From contig JADLEL010000051.1 in NCBI GenBank assembly GCA_020846145.1, positions 21,578 through 85,577 of the forward strand: 64,000 bases of DNA, given 5' to 3'. Below the pieces are notes generated by a model that was not told the DNA's origin, did not search any database, and saw only the letters and a list, made by a program, of their open reading frames with translations. Positions 1,967-63,825 of the stretch are shown piece after piece; the first letter of the stretch is position 1; each line of letters opens with the position of its first letter. Source of the stretch: Pirellulales bacterium. GTDB lineage: Bacteria; Planctomycetota; Planctomycetia; Pirellulales; Thermoguttaceae. The position numbers and the translations under genes are program-made.

Positions 1967-3766
1967 GTGCCCCTCAACCTCGCCTCTCGATTGACGCGCC
2001 AGGCGGAAGCGCGGCCGGATGCCGCGGCCGTGGTCGAGCCGCTGGGATACGACCGCGCGGGGAAGCGGCGGTATCGGTCGATCACATTCCGCGAATTGGA
2101 CGAGGATAGCGACCGCATCGCGCGGGGACTGCGCGCGTGGGGCGTGCCTAAAGGCGCGCGGCTGGCGCTTCTAGTCCGGCCGGGGATCGATTTCATCGCC
2201 CTGGTGTTCGGCTTGCTCAAGGCGGGCACGGTCGTGGTGCTGATCGATCCCGGCATGGGCCGCGGGAACCTGATCGAGTGCCTCGCCGAGGCCGAGCCGG
2301 ATGGATTCGTCGCCATTCCGCAAGCGCAGGCCGTTCGCGCGATCTTGCGGCGACGATTTCCGAAAGCCAAATGGAACGTAACCGTCGGCCGACGCTGGTT
2401 TTGGGGCGGGAAGACGCTCGCGCAGCTTCGCAACAAAAAGGGGTCAGAACTATTATCAGAATTGACAATCCCAGAGAAAACAGTTCTGACCCCTTTTTCG
2501 ACCACGGCCGACGATCCGGCGGCGATCATCTTTACGACCGGGAGTACGGGTCCACCGAAGGGGGTGCTGTTCACGCACGGCAATTTCGACGCCCAGGTGC
2601 GTGAAATTCAGGATTTTTACGGAATTCGGGCCGGGGAGATCGACCTGCCCTGCTTTCCGATGTTCGGGCTGTTCAATTGCCTGATGGGCGTAACGGCGGT
2701 CATTCCCGAGATGGACCCGACGCGGCCGGCGCAGGTCGATCCGCGTAAAATCCTTGAAGCCGCCGGCGATTGGCGGATCACCCAGGCGTTCGGCTCGCCG
2801 GCGGTGTGGAATCGGGTCGGGCGCTACTGCGAAGAGCATAAGATCAAGCTGCCCACGCTCCGCCGCGTGCTGTCGGCGGGCGCTCCGGTGCCGTCGGACG
2901 TGCTGCGGCGGATGAAGGATTGCATTCATCCGGAGGGCGATATCCACACGCCCTACGGCGCGACCGAGGCCCTGCCCGTGGCGTCGATCTCCGCTTCCGA
3001 ACGGCTCGCCGAGACCGATGCACGGACTCTCGAAGGGGCGGGGGTGTGCGTGGGGCGAAAGTTTCCGAGCATCGCGTGGAAGGTGATTCGCATCGTGGAT
3101 GGGCCGATCGAGTCCTTCGACGAGATCGAAGATCTGCCGCCGGGCGAAATCGGGGAGCTTATCGTCAACGGTCCGCAAGTTACCCGCTGCTACGTTACGC
3201 GAATCGAGGCGAATCGGACGGGGAAGATATTGCAGGGGAGAGGGGAGAGGGGAGAGGGAAGAGAAGAAGGGGGAAGGGGGAAGGGGGAAGGGGGAGCGTT
3301 CGACGACCGGGCAGCAGCAGAAAAATGGCCGGGAAACGAGTCGGATGGCAGCGTTTGGCATCGGATGGGCGATGCGGGCTATTTCGATGCCCAGGACCGG
3401 TTTTGGTTCTGCGGCCGCGTGGCGCATCGGGTGTTGACGCCGCACGGGCCGCTGTATCCGATTCGCTGCGAGGCGATCGTCAATCGGCATCCCGACGTCT
3501 TTCGCTCGGCGCTGGTCGGCGTCGGGCCGCCGGGCGAGCAGCGGCCGATCATTATCGTGGAATCCCTGCCCGGCAAAATGCCGCAGTCGCCGGAAGCCGA
3601 GAAAAAGCTGTTGATGGAAATACGACAGCTTGCCGCGAGCAGCCCGCTGACCGCCGCCATCCACGATTTTCTCCTGCATCCCGCGTTTCCCGTCGATATC
3701 CGGCACAACGCCAAAATATTCCGCGAAAAGCTGGCCGCGTGGGCGGAAAGGCTTTTTGAGAAATGA
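1967..3766 (+). CDS. oleC: OleC-like AMP-forming ligase (beta-lactone synthetase of olefin synthesis) with two inserted repeats
   Basis: This is an acyl-adenylate-forming enzyme of the ANL superfamily. The run VLIDPGMGRGNLIECLAEAE and the segment VTVGRRWFWGGKTL match my memory of OleC, which activates 2-alkyl-3-hydroxy acids in long-chain olefin synthesis. The AMP-binding loop is TTGSTGPPKGV, the later motif is TPYGATEALP, and the C-terminal domain ends near DIRHNAKIFREKLAAW. The start is a GTG at 1967. Two stretches look foreign to the family: residues about 157-178, encoded by a 64-bp palindrome, and residues about 423-444, a Gly/Arg/Glu run encoded by heptamer repeats. Both fall in likely surface loops and keep the frame. 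No oleA, oleB or oleD is in the window, so the pathway role is inference. Confidence 0.8.
   Translation: MPLNLASRLTRQAEARPDAAAVVEPLGYDRAGKRRYRSITFRELDEDSDRIARGLRAWGVPKGARLALLVRPGIDFIALVFGLLKAGTVVVLIDPGMGRGNLIECLAEAEPDGFVAIPQAQAVRAILRRRFPKAKWNVTVGRRWFWGGKTLAQLRNKKGSELLSELTIPEKTVLTPFSTTADDPAAIIFTTGSTGPPKGVLFTHGNFDAQVREIQDFYGIRAGEIDLPCFPMFGLFNCLMGVTAVIPEMDPTRPAQVDPRKILEAAGDWRITQAFGSPAVWNRVGRYCEEHKIKLPTLRRVLSAGAPVPSDVLRRMKDCIHPEGDIHTPYGATEALPVASISASERLAETDARTLEGAGVCVGRKFPSIAWKVIRIVDGPIESFDEIEDLPPGEIGELIVNGPQVTRCYVTRIEANRTGKILQGRGERGEGREEGGRGKGEGGAFDDRAAAEKWPGNESDGSVWHRMGDAGYFDAQDRFWFCGRVAHRVLTPHGPLYPIRCEAIVNRHPDVFRSALVGVGPPGEQRPIIIVESLPGKMPQSPEAEKKLLMEIRQLAASSPLTAAIHDFLLHPAFPVDIRHNAKIFREKLAAWAERLFEK
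2437..2500. repeat. Palindromic element inside the oleC coding sequence
   Basis: AAAAAGGGGTCAGAACT at 2437-2453 has a perfect 17-bp inverted copy at 2484-2500, separated by 30 bases. The whole element is translated as part of the ligase (about KKGSELLSEL...VLTPF). It has the A-run-plus-GGGG head of the GGGGACAGTCCC palindromes found elsewhere in the window. Confidence 0.85.
3235..3296. repeat. Heptamer tandem repeat inside oleC coding sequence
   Basis: Three exact GGGGAGA units (3235-3255) and a GGGAAGA variant are followed, after a short irregular stretch, by about four GGGGGAA-type units (3269-3296). The period is seven bases, so loss or gain of one unit would shift the reading frame of the ligase. 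Confidence 0.9.
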
Positions 3767-38549: not shown

Positions 38550-38663
38550 GAATGATGAATGCTGAATGATGAATGATGAATTGAAAGCACCATCTCATTC
38601 GCCATTCGGATACACGTTAGTCCCGTTGTGGTATTCATCATTCATCATTCAGCATTCATCATT
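38550..38663. repeat. Inverted pair of GAATGAT heptamer arrays between recR and rpoN
   Basis: GAATGAT, GAATGCT, GAATGAT, GAATGAT, GAATTGA run at 38550-38584. The complementary array ATTCATC, ATTCATC, ATTCAGC, ATTCATC runs at 38633-38660. They enclose about 48 bases and fill almost the whole recR-rpoN gap. Confidence 0.93.
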
Positions 38664-39265: not shown

Positions 39266-39270
39266 TCTTA

Positions 39271-39416
39271 GGGGAGAGGGGAGAGAGGAGAGGGGAGAGA
39301 AAGAAGCAATGCTTTCACTCCCTTGTTGCCGCAAATACTAACAGCCGGGCCCGCGAGAATATATTTTGCGCGTGCATTCATTCTTCACTCTCCCCTCTCC
39401 CCTCTCCCCTCTCCCC
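39271..39416. repeat. Inverted pair of GGGGAGA heptamer arrays at the ybaB-recR junction
   Basis: GGGGAGA, GGGGAGA, GAGGAGA, GGGGAGA run at 39271-39298. The complementary TCTCCCC x4 runs at 39389-39416. The second array lies inside the 3' end of ybaB and encodes its Gly/Glu/Arg tail. The enclosed segment is about 90 bases. Confidence 0.93.
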
Positions 39417-39770
39417 TGCTCCCGTTCCCATGAGCTTCTCCATCGCCGCGTCCAAGCCGGGCACGGAGAGGCCGCCGGTGAGGTCGCGCATGGCGTCGGC
39501 GTGCATTTGTTTGCTTTTGGCGATGGCCTGATTGACGGCCGCGACGACGAGGTCTTCCAAAAACTCGGCATCGCCCTGGGTGATGAGCGCGGGATCGATC
39601 TTGCAGCGCAGCACTTCCATGAGGCCGTTGACTTCGATCTCGACCATGCCGCCGCCCGACGAGCCGACGACCCGCCGGCTCTTCATTTCTTCTTGCAGCT
39701 TGCCCATCTGCCCGCCGATTTGCTGGGCCTGCTTCAAGATCGCGCCGAGATTGGACAGTCCTTTGAACAT
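39378..39770 (-). CDS. ybaB: YbaB/EbfC nucleoid-associated protein with a repeat-encoded tail
   Basis: YbaB/EbfC is a small DNA-binding protein of the nucleoid, nearly always between dnaX and recR. The 130-aa ORF starts MFKGLSNLGAILKQAQQIGG and contains the family core SSGGGMVEIEVNGLMEV and CKIDPALI. The normal protein would end near LDAAMEKLMG; the last 15 or so residues (GTGAGERGEGRGESEE) come from a heptamer array and are not part of the family. The array is seven bases per unit, so a change in copy number would alter the tail frame but not the core. The gene lies 7 bases downstream of dnaX. Confidence 0.95.
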   Translation of the reverse strand: MFKGLSNLGAILKQAQQIGGQMGKLQEEMKSRRVVGSSGGGMVEIEVNGLMEVLRCKIDPALITQGDAEFLEDLVVAAVNQAIAKSKQMHADAMRDLTGGLSVPGLDAAMEKLMGTGAGERGEGRGESEE

Positions 39771-39777
39771 GGTTGAT

Positions 39778-41559
39778 TTATTCCCTATTCGGCGGATCGA
39801 CCTTTACGGGAGTGGCGCCGAAAAGTTCCGCCGCCTGTTGCACCATCGGATGTTTGGCGATTTCCATGACCAGTTGATGTTGCGAGACGGCCCGAACCGG
39901 CGCCGGCGCTGCTCCCGACGGACCGCCGCTCTCTTCCACGATAAATTGCAGCCGAATCGGCTGGCCGGTTACTTCGGCCAGGGCCTGCTCGAAACGGACG
40001 ACCTGCCGCTCGCACATCGACTTCGGCATAGCATACTCCGCTTTGAAGGAAATAGCCAGGGTATTTGGCGCGGAAATTGCTACGGCGTGAAACCGCCGAG
40101 CGTGGTCGGCCACCATGCCCGATACCCGGCCGATGGCCCGATTCCACAGTTCCATTGCATTTTCGGGCGTCAAAACGGTCGGAGATGCCACTTTTGGAGT
40201 GGCTTCGGGTGGCGATTGATAGGGTGTTACGATGGATTCATCGTTTTTTTTTCCACCCAAATCCCCTGCGGGCGATTCCAACGCCGGCGGAGATATGATG
40301 CCGGAAGAATATCCGGCGGAGGTTCCGGCGGAAGGTAGGTCGGAAGTCGGCAAAGGCGTTGCTCCCGAACCGACCACCGTAATCGGCATGCCGCTGCGCA
40401 CCTGGGCGACGATTTGCGCAAGTTCCTCCAGATCTTCCAAGTGGCAAATGCGCACCAGCGCCAGTTCGGCCAGAATGCGACCCTGCGTGCTATACCGCAT
40501 TCGGGAAAGCGTTTGGTCGAGTATCTGCATCATCGCCAGCACCGTTTGCAGGCCCAACCGCTGTCCGGCCGCCGCGATATCGGCCGCGCTCGAAGGCGAG
40601 GCGTAGAGAAACGCGTCGGCTTGGCAGCCGACCGACGCCGCCATGCAATCGCGGAAGTAGCCGAAAAGCTGCTCGACGAGTTGCGGGGCATCGACGCCGG
40701 CATGGAGGGCGGCGTCCAAATCGTTGAGAGCCGCCGCCGCATCCCGGCCCACGATATGCCCGACGAGGCCCATCAAGAGCGAATCGCCCGCCGTGCCGAG
40801 CATGTTGTGAACGTCTTCGACGGTAATCTTGCCGGACGAGAAGGCCAAAAGCTGCTCCAAGAGCGATTGGCTGTCGCGCATCGAACCTGCCGCGCGGCGG
40901 GCGAGCACCTCGAGCGCCTGCGGATCGGCCTCGACCCCCTCCGCATCGACAATCTGCCGTAATCTTTGCGCAATGGATTGAGTCAGAATGCCCGCAAAGT
41001 CGAACCGCTGACAGCGCGAAAGAATCGTAATCGGGATTTTCGTCGCTTCGGTCGTGCAGAAGATGAATTTGACGTGCTCCGGCGGCTCCTCCAGCGTTTT
41101 CAAGAGGGCGTTGAACGCCTCGCGGGTGAGCATGTGGACTTCGTCGATAATATAGATTTTGTGCCGCGAACGGCTGGGTCGCACGTTCACGTTCTGCCGC
41201 AACTGGCGGATTTCATCGATGCCGCGATTGCTCGCGCCGTCGATCTCGAGCACATCCACGTCGTCACCGGCGGCAATCGCCCGGCAGGTGTCGCATTCGT
41301 TGCAAGGATGGGCGCTGGTTCCCTTTTCACAATTCAGCGCCTTGGCCAAAATCCGCGCCGCGGAAGTTTTTCCCACTCCCCGCGCGCCGGTGAAAAGATA
41401 GGCGTGCCCCACGCGGCCGGCGGCAATCGCATTGGTAAGCGCCTGCGACACGTGCTCCTGACCGACCAACTCCGCGAACGCCTGCGGCCGATAGCGCCGC
41501 GCCACCACGACGTATTGCTTGGCGGGAAGGGCTTCGGCGGCGAGGGGAGTATCGGACAT
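39778..41559 (-). CDS. dnaX: DNA polymerase III subunit gamma/tau
   Basis: DnaX is the clamp-loader ATPase of the replicative polymerase. This 593-aa protein has the N-terminal YRPQAFAELVGQEHVSQAL, Walker A FTGARGVGKTSAARIL, the four-Cys zinc module (CEKGTSAHPCNECDTC), Walker B IYIIDEVHML, sensor FCTTEATKIPITILSRCQRF and the domain III collar. The C-terminal third (from about residue 385) is variable and Pro/Ser-rich with a short folded end. I did not identify a slippery frameshift site for gamma. The upstream region has no clear ribosome-binding site; a repeat-bounded cassette begins 10 bases before the ATG. Confidence 0.96.
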   Translation of the reverse strand: MSDTPLAAEALPAKQYVVVARRYRPQAFAELVGQEHVSQALTNAIAAGRVGHAYLFTGARGVGKTSAARILAKALNCEKGTSAHPCNECDTCRAIAAGDDVDVLEIDGASNRGIDEIRQLRQNVNVRPSRSRHKIYIIDEVHMLTREAFNALLKTLEEPPEHVKFIFCTTEATKIPITILSRCQRFDFAGILTQSIAQRLRQIVDAEGVEADPQALEVLARRAAGSMRDSQSLLEQLLAFSSGKITVEDVHNMLGTAGDSLLMGLVGHIVGRDAAAALNDLDAALHAGVDAPQLVEQLFGYFRDCMAASVGCQADAFLYASPSSAADIAAAGQRLGLQTVLAMMQILDQTLSRMRYSTQGRILAELALVRICHLEDLEELAQIVAQVRSGMPITVVGSGATPLPTSDLPSAGTSAGYSSGIISPPALESPAGDLGGKKNDESIVTPYQSPPEATPKVASPTVLTPENAMELWNRAIGRVSGMVADHARRFHAVAISAPNTLAISFKAEYAMPKSMCERQVVRFEQALAEVTGQPIRLQFIVEESGGPSGAAPAPVRAVSQHQLVMEIAKHPMVQQAAELFGATPVKVDPPNRE

Positions 41560-41568
41560 GATTTAAGG

Positions 41569-42240
41569 ATTGCAAATTGCAAATTGAGCGAAGGCTTTTA
41601 TTGACGATTGCATAAATGGTATCAACACGGAGGCACGGAGGACACGGAGGTGTCAACTATGCATATTAGATTTCACACATTATGGTTCGAGTTCTCTCCT
41701 TAAGATTTTCGCACCCTCATACCCTTTGTGCTTTTCGGCTTCCGTTTTCTTCATCCAAAAATTTACCGTATTTGCTAGAACGGACTCGACATATTTTGAT
41801 GGTACGAAGAATACTTCGGGTGGCTTGTTTTCATCTTTGGGCCATTCGGCAGGCAAATAAACGAAAGCGTACCAAAGCGATGAATTCTTCGGAAAGATTG
41901 GTTTCTTTATTCTCCAGATATACTTATCTTTCACTTTATTCAAAGTGGTTGTTCCCGTTTTCACCTGAATCGCGATGGTTTCTCCACCTTTCGGCATTGC
42001 GACGAACAGATCGATACCGGGAACACCCGCTCTCGGCAATCCGACCACCATACCCAGAGCGGAGAGATACGCAGCCACGTAAAATTCACCAGTTGCTCCC
42101 GTAAGAATCGAATTATTTGCCATTTCTTCAATCTCGATGTCCGTTTAAAACTCCGTGTCCTCCGTGTCTCCGTGGTTAATTCCTTGTTTTCCCGTTGTTC
42201 AATTTGCAATTTGCAATTTGCAATTACCAATTTGCAATAA
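41569..42240. mobile_element. Repeat-bounded cassette carrying a nuclease-like gene, between ffs and dnaX
   Basis: The left end has ATTGCAA heptamers (41569-41585), a roughly 40-base spacer, and CACGGAGG-CACGGAGGA-CACGGAGG (41626-41650). The right end has the mirror arrangement: CTCCGTGTCCTCCGTGTCTCCGTG (42151-42174), spacer, then TTTGCAA/GCAATTT heptamers (42199-42240). The two ends thus form compound inverted repeats around one AT-rich gene. The cassette begins 10 bases from the dnaX start codon and ends 8 bases from the SRP RNA 3' end. A mobile or cassette nature is inference; no transposase or target duplication was found. Confidence 0.65.
41680..42123 (-). CDS. PD-(D/E)XK nuclease-like protein
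   Basis: This 147-aa protein shows a possible nuclease core: Glu13 in TGEFYVAAYLSALG, Asp38 in GIDLFVAMPKGG and the QVK of IAIQVKTGTTT (Gln53-Lys55). This is the E...D...QxK layout seen in small PD-(D/E)XK-fold proteins such as intron-associated or DUF4365-like families. The C-terminal half includes WYAFVYLPAEWPKDENKPPE and FFVPSKYVESVL, which also fit that group. It is AT-richer than the surrounding housekeeping genes and lies between ffs and dnaX, flanked by inverted heptamer and CACGGAGG repeats. Its role could be in mobility or defence; neither is proven. Confidence 0.65.
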   Translation of the reverse strand: MANNSILTGATGEFYVAAYLSALGMVVGLPRAGVPGIDLFVAMPKGGETIAIQVKTGTTTLNKVKDKYIWRIKKPIFPKNSSLWYAFVYLPAEWPKDENKPPEVFFVPSKYVESVLANTVNFWMKKTEAEKHKGYEGAKILRRELEP

Positions 42241-42247
42241 AGCACTC

Positions 42248-42364
42248 GCCGGCGGCCGATGAGAGACCCGCCGCACCTGGAGATGACTGCTTATGGCTGC
42301 TGACTTTCGTCCCTGACCAGGTTCGCAGGTCCCCATCGCGGGGGCCTCTCATCGGACGCCGGCG
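42248..42364 (-). ncRNA. ffs: Signal recognition particle RNA (small bacterial type)
   Basis: On the minus strand the sequence GAACCTGGTCAGG-GACGAAAGTC-AGCAGCCATAAGC is the conserved domain IV. It has the symmetric loop GTCAGG/AGCAGC, a GAAA tetraloop on a GAC/GTC stem, and the returning strand CCAGGTGCGGCGGGTC. The two ends pair over about 18 bases (GCCGGCG..CCGATGAGAG with CTCTCATCGG..CGCCGGC). The RNA scaffolds Ffh for co-translational membrane targeting. In many bacteria ffs lies just upstream of dnaX, as here. This gene is not in the ORF track. The ends are approximate. Confidence 0.95.
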
Positions 42365-42490: not shown

Positions 42491-42524
42491 ACTGCCTACT
42501 GCCTACTGCATACCGCCTACTACT
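42491..42524. repeat. ACTGCCT heptamer array overlapping the end of mntP
   Basis: ACTGCCT, ACTGCCT, ACTGCAT, ACCGCCT, ACTACT follow with period seven. The array covers the stop codon and the last codons (VVGGMQ) of mntP, so it has replaced or extended the native C-terminus. Confidence 0.88.
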
Positions 42525-60541: not shown

Positions 60542-60590
60542 CTATCCCCTATCCCCTATCCCCTATCCCCTATCCTCTATCCCCTAATCC
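60542..60590. repeat. CTATCCC heptamer array
   Basis: Seven units: CTATCCC x4, CTATCCT, CTATCCC, CTAATCC. It ends two bases before the stop codon of the redoxin gene. Confidence 0.95.
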
Positions 60591-60592
60591 CT

Positions 60593-62358: not shown

Positions 62359-62393
62359 GAGAGTAAAGAGTGGAGAGTGGAGAGTGGAGAGTA
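62359..62393. repeat. GAGAGTG heptamer array
   Basis: GAGAGTA, AAGAGTG, GAGAGTG, GAGAGTG, GAGAGTA: five units beginning four bases after the stop codon of the coiled-coil gene. Confidence 0.93.
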
Positions 62394-62438
62394 CTTTGTA
62401 CGCGAACAAAAGGCTTTTCCACAAACTGCATAACTCCC

Positions 62439-62508
62439 GACCACTGACCACTGAGCACTACCCACTGAACACTGAACACTACCCACCGACTACTAGCCAC
62501 CGACCACC
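62439..62508. repeat. GACCACT heptamer array
   Basis: Ten degenerate units in register: GACCACT, GACCACT, GAGCACT, ACCCACT, GAACACT, GAACACT, ACCCACC, GACTACT, AGCCACC, GACCACC. It ends 28 bases before the start of the FGE-like gene. Confidence 0.93.
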
Positions 62509-62536
62509 GACGAAAAACATCATTGAAGTTTCGGTT

Positions 62537-63790: not shown

Positions 63791-63825
63791 ATTGCAAATT
63801 GGTCATTGCAAATTGCAAATTGAAC
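63791..63825. repeat. ATTGCAA heptamer array
   Basis: ATTGCAA, ATTGGTC, ATTGCAA, ATTGCAA, ATTGAAC. It has the same heptamer as the ends of the cassette at 41.6-42.2 kb, and lies ten bases after the stop codon of the FGE-like gene. Confidence 0.93.

Follow-up and report, generated by a model that had tools for sequence, protein, structure and literature searches.

The 64-kb stretch of DNA analysed here (the window) carries between its ffs and dnaX genes a unit that is probably a nested selfish insert: a GxxExxY-type element, in whose slot another nuclease gene lies, sits inside a heptamer hairpin like those of 23S rRNA intervening sequences (IVS). This reading draws on the anatomy of the unit, the absence of its gene in relatives, the association of its two kinds of arrays with two gene families, the presence of gene-less siblings and the covariation of arms and gene between phyla. 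Mirrored repeats of the same kinds surround two other widespread gene families in many bacterial phyla, which points to a class of selfish inserts that has gone largely unnoticed.

The unit between ffs and dnaX and its gene

On the minus strand of the window the order is ffs, insert, dnaX, with the following features:

42255-42353, minus strand: ffs, bacterial small SRP RNA (RF00169, 65 bits), the upstream neighbour in transcription order
42192-42238, minus strand: right outer arm, inverted ATTGCAA heptamer array, 5.6 copies including an ATTGGTA variant
42143-42174, minus strand: right inner arm, inverted CACGGAGG array, reading TTAACCACGGAGACACGGAGGACACGGAG on the minus strand
41680-42123, minus strand: PD-(D/E)XK nuclease-like gene, 147 aa, with E13, D38 and Q53-x-K55; DUF4365/Mrr/PDDEXK_5-like
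41625-41657, plus strand: left inner arm, ACACGGAGG/CACGGAGG array of 3 units, GxxExxY-type, period 8/9, with the unit-pair motif
41569-41586, plus strand: left outer arm, ATTGCAA heptamer array, 2.6 copies, four-helix-bundle/IVS-type, period 7
39778-41559, minus strand: dnaX, clamp loader gamma/tau (PF13177, 7e-47; PF12169), the downstream neighbour in transcription order

The original prediction, which had described a single gene between ffs and dnaX enclosed by two-part ends in mirror order, was right about both neighbours and about the ends, with ATTGCAA arms outside, CACGGAGG arms inside and repeat counts far above expectation. Its distances of 8 and 10 bases to the flanking genes need correction to about 9 bp (dnaX) and about 14-16 bp (ffs). 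The inner arms (41626-41657 and 42143-42174) are inverted copies of 32 nt with 88% complementarity. The outer ones (41569-41594 and 42192-42217; 26 nt) reach the same value, 18 nt of them pairing at 100%, and are asymmetric, with about 2.6 heptamers on the left and about 5.6 on the right. With nine copies of ATTGCAAATTG in the window where 0.05 would be expected, six of them at this unit, a chance origin of the arrays is excluded; ACACGGAGG occurs three times against 0.37 expected, always at the unit. The right inner arm also reads TTAACCACGGAGACACGGAGG and resembles the ends of GxxExxY elements in other phyla.

The sole credible gene inside the unit is the 147-aa ORF. No transposase or integrase gene appears inside it in the ORF list, nor does a four-helix-bundle gene (PF05635). 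The Rfam scan of the window gave ffs as its only hit, with no rRNA family and no intron.

The window gene is missing from the ffs-dnaX gap in all 28 relatives that have both genes on one locus, all of them at genus distance or further, and from 59 other searched genomes of the family and order (related genera); the gap itself mostly measures 12-207 bp. Comparison of these sequences supports the view that the unit was inserted here and is lacking in relatives. In two of the 28 (L095 and L100) the gap is filled by other hairpins, gene-less inverted heptamer arrays of the GGGATTA and CGGGATT types. Two further loci have long gaps, one of 561 bp with a small membrane-protein-like ORF (L089) and one of 824 bp (L102). 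From these hairpins and long gaps, the site seems to be repeatedly open to inserts.

Pfam and NCBIfam profiles place the window gene weakly near DUF4365, Mrr and PDDEXK_4, always below the cut-off (for DUF4365, PF14280, 17.2 bits against a curated 24.3). Among the same profiles there is no GxxExxY match, and hhalign of alignment A4 against A1 returned a probability of 0.8%. A structure model of the protein, built from 15 homologues (pLDDT 76.7), found its best structural matches mostly among PD-(D/E)XK nucleases. It matched a subunit of the SPARDA complex (Z 9.7), the homing endonuclease I-Ssp6803I (Z 9.2 over 90 residues, 2.7 A) and the Hjc resolvase (Z 7.5). Catalytic-type residues E13, D38 and Q53-x-K55 are in place in alignment A4, and D38 and K55 are invariant in alignment A5. 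According to the model, the window protein is of PD-(D/E)XK fold and a predicted nuclease, which bears out the layout originally proposed for it. It falls in neither the GxxExxY nor the four-helix-bundle family. By sequence, neither the window family nor GxxExxY matched any solved structure. The genome contig search turned up nothing closely related to the window protein, and the plasmid search a single weak match, in Agrobacterium (33%).

By its profile, the family of the window gene has members in 27 of 392 genomes. Array ends are present at two of the 28 members tested, the window gene and one in a distant Planctomycete (L325), and the other 26 are array-free. In a subfamily comprising L330, L326, L331 and L325 the helix-1 glutamate is absent and NAGL replaces AGE, with D and QxK kept. 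The idea that array ends go with DUF4365 nucleases in general was considered and rejected, as none of 15 DUF4365 genes has arrays.

Inverted arrays at two gene families

How regularly do such arrays accompany a gene family? Genes were fetched by protein family regardless of repeats, and the 160 bp to the left of each was scored against the reverse complement of the 160 bp to the right. Relatives' loci are the best family hits, and many of the genomes are draft MAGs. At GxxExxY (PF13366) loci of this genome and its relatives the median score was 40, and 36 of 45 loci scored at least 28, a threshold set after a first look at distributions that lie well apart. Control ORFs from like loci had a median of 16, with 2/88 at or above the threshold; the top one is the window gene itself (54), and with it set aside 1/87 remains. 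The cross-phylum set, scored afterwards, covers GxxExxY loci from about 20 phyla and classes and has arrays in 56 of 78, against 3 of 40 controls. An array unit pair on both sides was found at 39/77 GxxExxY loci and 0/39 controls, and the window gene also has it on both sides. The pattern of array, nuclease gene and inverted array is therefore real for GxxExxY genes in many phyla.

Mismatched flanks reach a score of 28 in only 4.6% of cases, which shows that the arm sequence is particular to each element and has been copied or kept alike on its two sides. Arm similarity also rises with protein similarity, between phyla too (rho 0.32, p 0.001), and arms and gene thus behave as one unit. A period of 8/9 is seen in 24 of 36 GxxExxY arms, and an end motif like TTAACCRCRRAGG is common to Bacteroidota, Acidobacteria, Chloroflexi, Proteobacteria and Planctomycetes. 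Across the class there is no excess of target-site duplication signal (6.0% against 3.6% in mismatched flanks), the arm boundaries being fuzzy. GxxExxY-type insertions lie next to stop codons in conserved gene pairs, namely batD and a TPR protein gene, the methylmalonyl-CoA mutase pair, and sufB and sufC. A GxxExxY gene between fabD and fabG on a Sphingomonas plasmid has no flanking inverted arrays (IR 17). A Calothrix plasmid pair was rejected as a case of mobility, because the neighbouring genes are common to both plasmids as well and the element could not be isolated. In the open-access PMC literature we found no paper that ties such arrays to GxxExxY genes.

The second family, the four-helix-bundle proteins of PF05635 (23S_rRNA_IVP), has inverted arrays at 26/30 genes in relatives, at 9/10 in this genome and at 11/13 on plasmids (Cyanobacteria, Gemmatimonadota, Alphaproteobacteria, Bacteroidota). 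Here the arms have period 7 (22 of 26), and the heptamer differs from locus to locus (L163-L192, L289-L298, L343-L353). The plasmid sites lie between the ribonucleotide reductase beta and alpha genes, between cas10 and cmr3, and between cas6 and cas4. In the 23S rRNA IVS of Coxiella burnetii the terminal inverted repeats are cleaved by RNase III, and tandem GACAGAT heptamers precede the S23p ORF (PMC4990558); on account of both features this IVS fits the heptamer class. The origin of 23S rRNA intervening sequences is described as unclear (PMC4990558).

Of the eight heptamer classes arrayed in the window, five equal those of four-helix-bundle elements in the genome. ATTGCAA is not among these, and no ATTGCAA array was found at a four-helix-bundle gene in this genome. 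A gene-less inverted GAATGAT heptamer hairpin lies at 38550-38663 of the window, and GAATGAT also flanks a four-helix-bundle gene at G000:C59 (L298). Further heptamer arrays of the window, several of them common to four-helix-bundle loci of the genome, are at 3234-3296, 39270-39299, 39388-39423, 42491-42521, 60542-60591, 62359-62511 and 63791-63822; their heptamers are AGGGGAG, GAAGGGG, CTCTCCC, ACTGCCT, CTATCCC, GAGAGTG, GACCACT and ATTGCAA.

Gene-less copies, nesting and the origin of the unit

Both kinds of repeats are common in the 5.8-Mb genome, mostly without genes. The exact 17-mer CAATTTGCAATTTGCAA of the ATTGCAA end has 45 matches and the pattern CACGGAGN{1,3}CACRGAG for CACGGAGG pairs has 214; the reversed control of each has none. 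The census of arrays covered the first 100 places listed. Among the first 61 CACGGAGG arrays there were 20 convergent pairs and one other, and 18 of these pairs enclose gene-less loops of 58-240 bp. The two longest listed loops hold a GxxExxY pseudogene (441 bp) and the window gene (501 bp). The pseudogene (L144, G000:C40, 1491-1970) has two in-frame TAA codons, is 64% identical to L113 and is, among the matches listed, the only GxxExxY gene with CACGGAGG arrays in this genome, a broken one. Ends of this kind thus recur and are not confined to this locus; elsewhere they enclose GxxExxY genes, and in this genome they are mostly gene-less.

Nesting is also recurrent. A gene-less twin at C122 (L050) has the compound ATTGCAA/CACGGAGG ends, the compound end is present in part at C20, and the CACGGAGG loops at C105 and C55 (L150, L151) have in common a third nested hairpin of the AGCGGAATGAAG ... 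GGAAAAAGGGGAAA type. The compound end is therefore best read as one element within another. The original prediction took it for a single signal, and it gives way here to two nested repeat families, each tied elsewhere to a different gene family.

The second array-bracketed member of the window gene's family, at L325, lies between an ACAGATG-type array and an inverted array, beyond which follow a GxxExxY gene and a further inverted array, and the whole sits between two genes that we take, from their translations, to be sufB and sufC. The two cases are independent and have differently spelled arrays, one of them beside a GxxExxY gene, which favours cargo or replacement over pure accident, few as two cases are. 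The exchangeable cassette of the original prediction is thus upheld in part: the insert is absent in relatives and its ends are non-random, but such ends are not a property of the nuclease family, whether DUF4365 or the gene's own.

These data bear directly on chance capture, in which a nuclease gene gained by horizontal transfer inserted into, or came to be enclosed by, plentiful gene-less hairpins already present in the ffs-dnaX gap, with no functional link between them. The abundance of mostly gene-less repeats, the largely array-free family of the gene together with the array-free DUF4365 genes, and the other hairpins in the same gap of two relatives all agree with it. Against it speak the arrangement at L325, where in a distant genome a second family member lies in GxxExxY-type arrays beside a GxxExxY gene, and the finding that both long-loop CACGGAGG pairs among the matches listed hold PD-(D/E)XK genes. 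We consider chance capture unlikely, though worth keeping in mind.

The predicted RNA of the whole element forms both arm pairs and folds far better than shuffled sequences (z -6.95). This would be expected if the unit were an RNA-level element, whose arms make a long RNA stem, processed by RNase III as in 23S IVS and insulating ffs from dnaX, with DNA mobility ancient or absent; the Coxiella IVS, with its RNase III-cut terminal inverted repeats and its heptamers before the S23p ORF (PMC4990558), provides a precedent. However, a stem requires neither a tandem periodicity of 7 or 8/9 bp, nor a unit motif held in common across phyla, nor a nuclease gene, and the copies are dispersed and nested, so that we find this explanation rather improbable. 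A conventional transposon, integron cassette or phage remnant, to which inverted repeats at the ends and a place between two genes usually near each other might point, is very improbable given no transposase or integrase gene inside, no target-site duplication signal in the class, no match in phage records and none of the ATTGCAA end in viral contigs.

Under the nested selfish insert that we prefer, an inner hairpin of inverted 8/9-bp CACGGAGG arrays, of the kind that carries GxxExxY elsewhere, would hold a different small PD-(D/E)XK gene and would itself lie in the loop of an outer hairpin, whose inverted 7-bp ATTGCAA arrays are of the kind that carries four-helix-bundle genes elsewhere. Two results count against this reading: the lack of a target-site duplication signal and the absence of ATTGCAA arrays from the four-helix-bundle genes of this genome. 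A homing-style nuclease may recognise or cut hairpin or repeat DNA, and repair after cleavage at or near such targets would copy the element in; this nuclease would be GxxExxY in standard elements and possibly the window protein in the present unit. The gene-less hairpins would be non-autonomous copies spreading in trans. The window gene may have been captured into the element or have taken the place of GxxExxY, and with 26 of 28 family members array-free it may be a passenger. Insertion between co-transcribed genes would be tolerated because strongly pairing arms would loop the insert out of the transcript, lowering harm to the neighbours, as in IVS.

As to how such elements move, we infer that a homing-like process is most likely. 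The lack of a duplication signal, the lack of a recombinase, the homing-endonuclease/resolvase fold and the sites adjacent to stop codons all fit with it, and none of them proves it. That a nuclease drives the movement is plausible but unproven. Movement by a recombinase acting on the repeats, the other route originally put forward, found no support.

Significance and relation to known systems

Intergenic tandem repeats that are common yet unexplained here receive an explanation that can be tested, and two large families of obscure function, GxxExxY and four-helix-bundle, receive a biological context. Should GxxExxY proteins mobilise such elements, a PD-(D/E)XK nuclease and repeat arrays would together make up an insertion system that needs no transposase. 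A wider generalisation is quite possible, and we advance it tentatively: the families of GxxExxY PD-(D/E)XK proteins and four-helix-bundle S23/IVS proteins may serve two parallel classes of selfish elements as their mobility genes, the ends being inverted 8/9-mer and 7-mer arrays respectively, and gene-less derivatives of these elements may account for a large part of the tandem-heptamer and CACAGAGG-type repeats between bacterial genes. The window unit would then be a hybrid, one class nested in the other, its slot taken by a different nuclease.

I-Ssp6803I and the archaeal Hjc resolvases share their fold with the window protein at an identity of about 14-18%. I-Ssp6803I resides in a group I intron; in contrast, the window gene has no intron, ffs being the only Rfam hit. 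In REPtron/RAYT and MITE-type elements inverted repeats flank a gene, and there are many gene-less dispersed copies. Both traits are shared by the window unit, which nevertheless has a PD-(D/E)XK gene instead of an HUH/RAYT or DDE gene, and tandem arrays of 7- or 8/9-mers. The GxxExxY loci (TIGR04256 / PF13366 PDDEXK_3) are closer, with the same inner 8/9-bp inverted arrays, unit motif, layout and PD-(D/E)XK-type product, although the window protein does not belong to the GxxExxY family and has no profile match to it.

Intergenic tandem heptamers, often in convergent pairs, are shared with cyanobacterial heptamer repeats and with the convergent GGGAATC arrays of Xanthomonas, about 70 pairs of which occur in X. 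campestris according to the available part of one report (PMC4692102). That part treats the arrays as G-quadruplex sequences and draws no link to an enclosed gene family.

The 23S IVS with its S23p/four-helix-bundle ORF in Coxiella burnetii (PMC4990558) differs from the window unit in location, since the latter lies between ffs and dnaX, outside 23S rRNA, and in content, since the latter encloses a PD-(D/E)XK nuclease gene with a second array family nested inside. Both are short inserts with a single small ORF, tandem heptamers near it and inverted repeats at the termini that pair into a long stem. The results also suggest that 23S rRNA intervening sequences of the classical type are one case of a much wider class.
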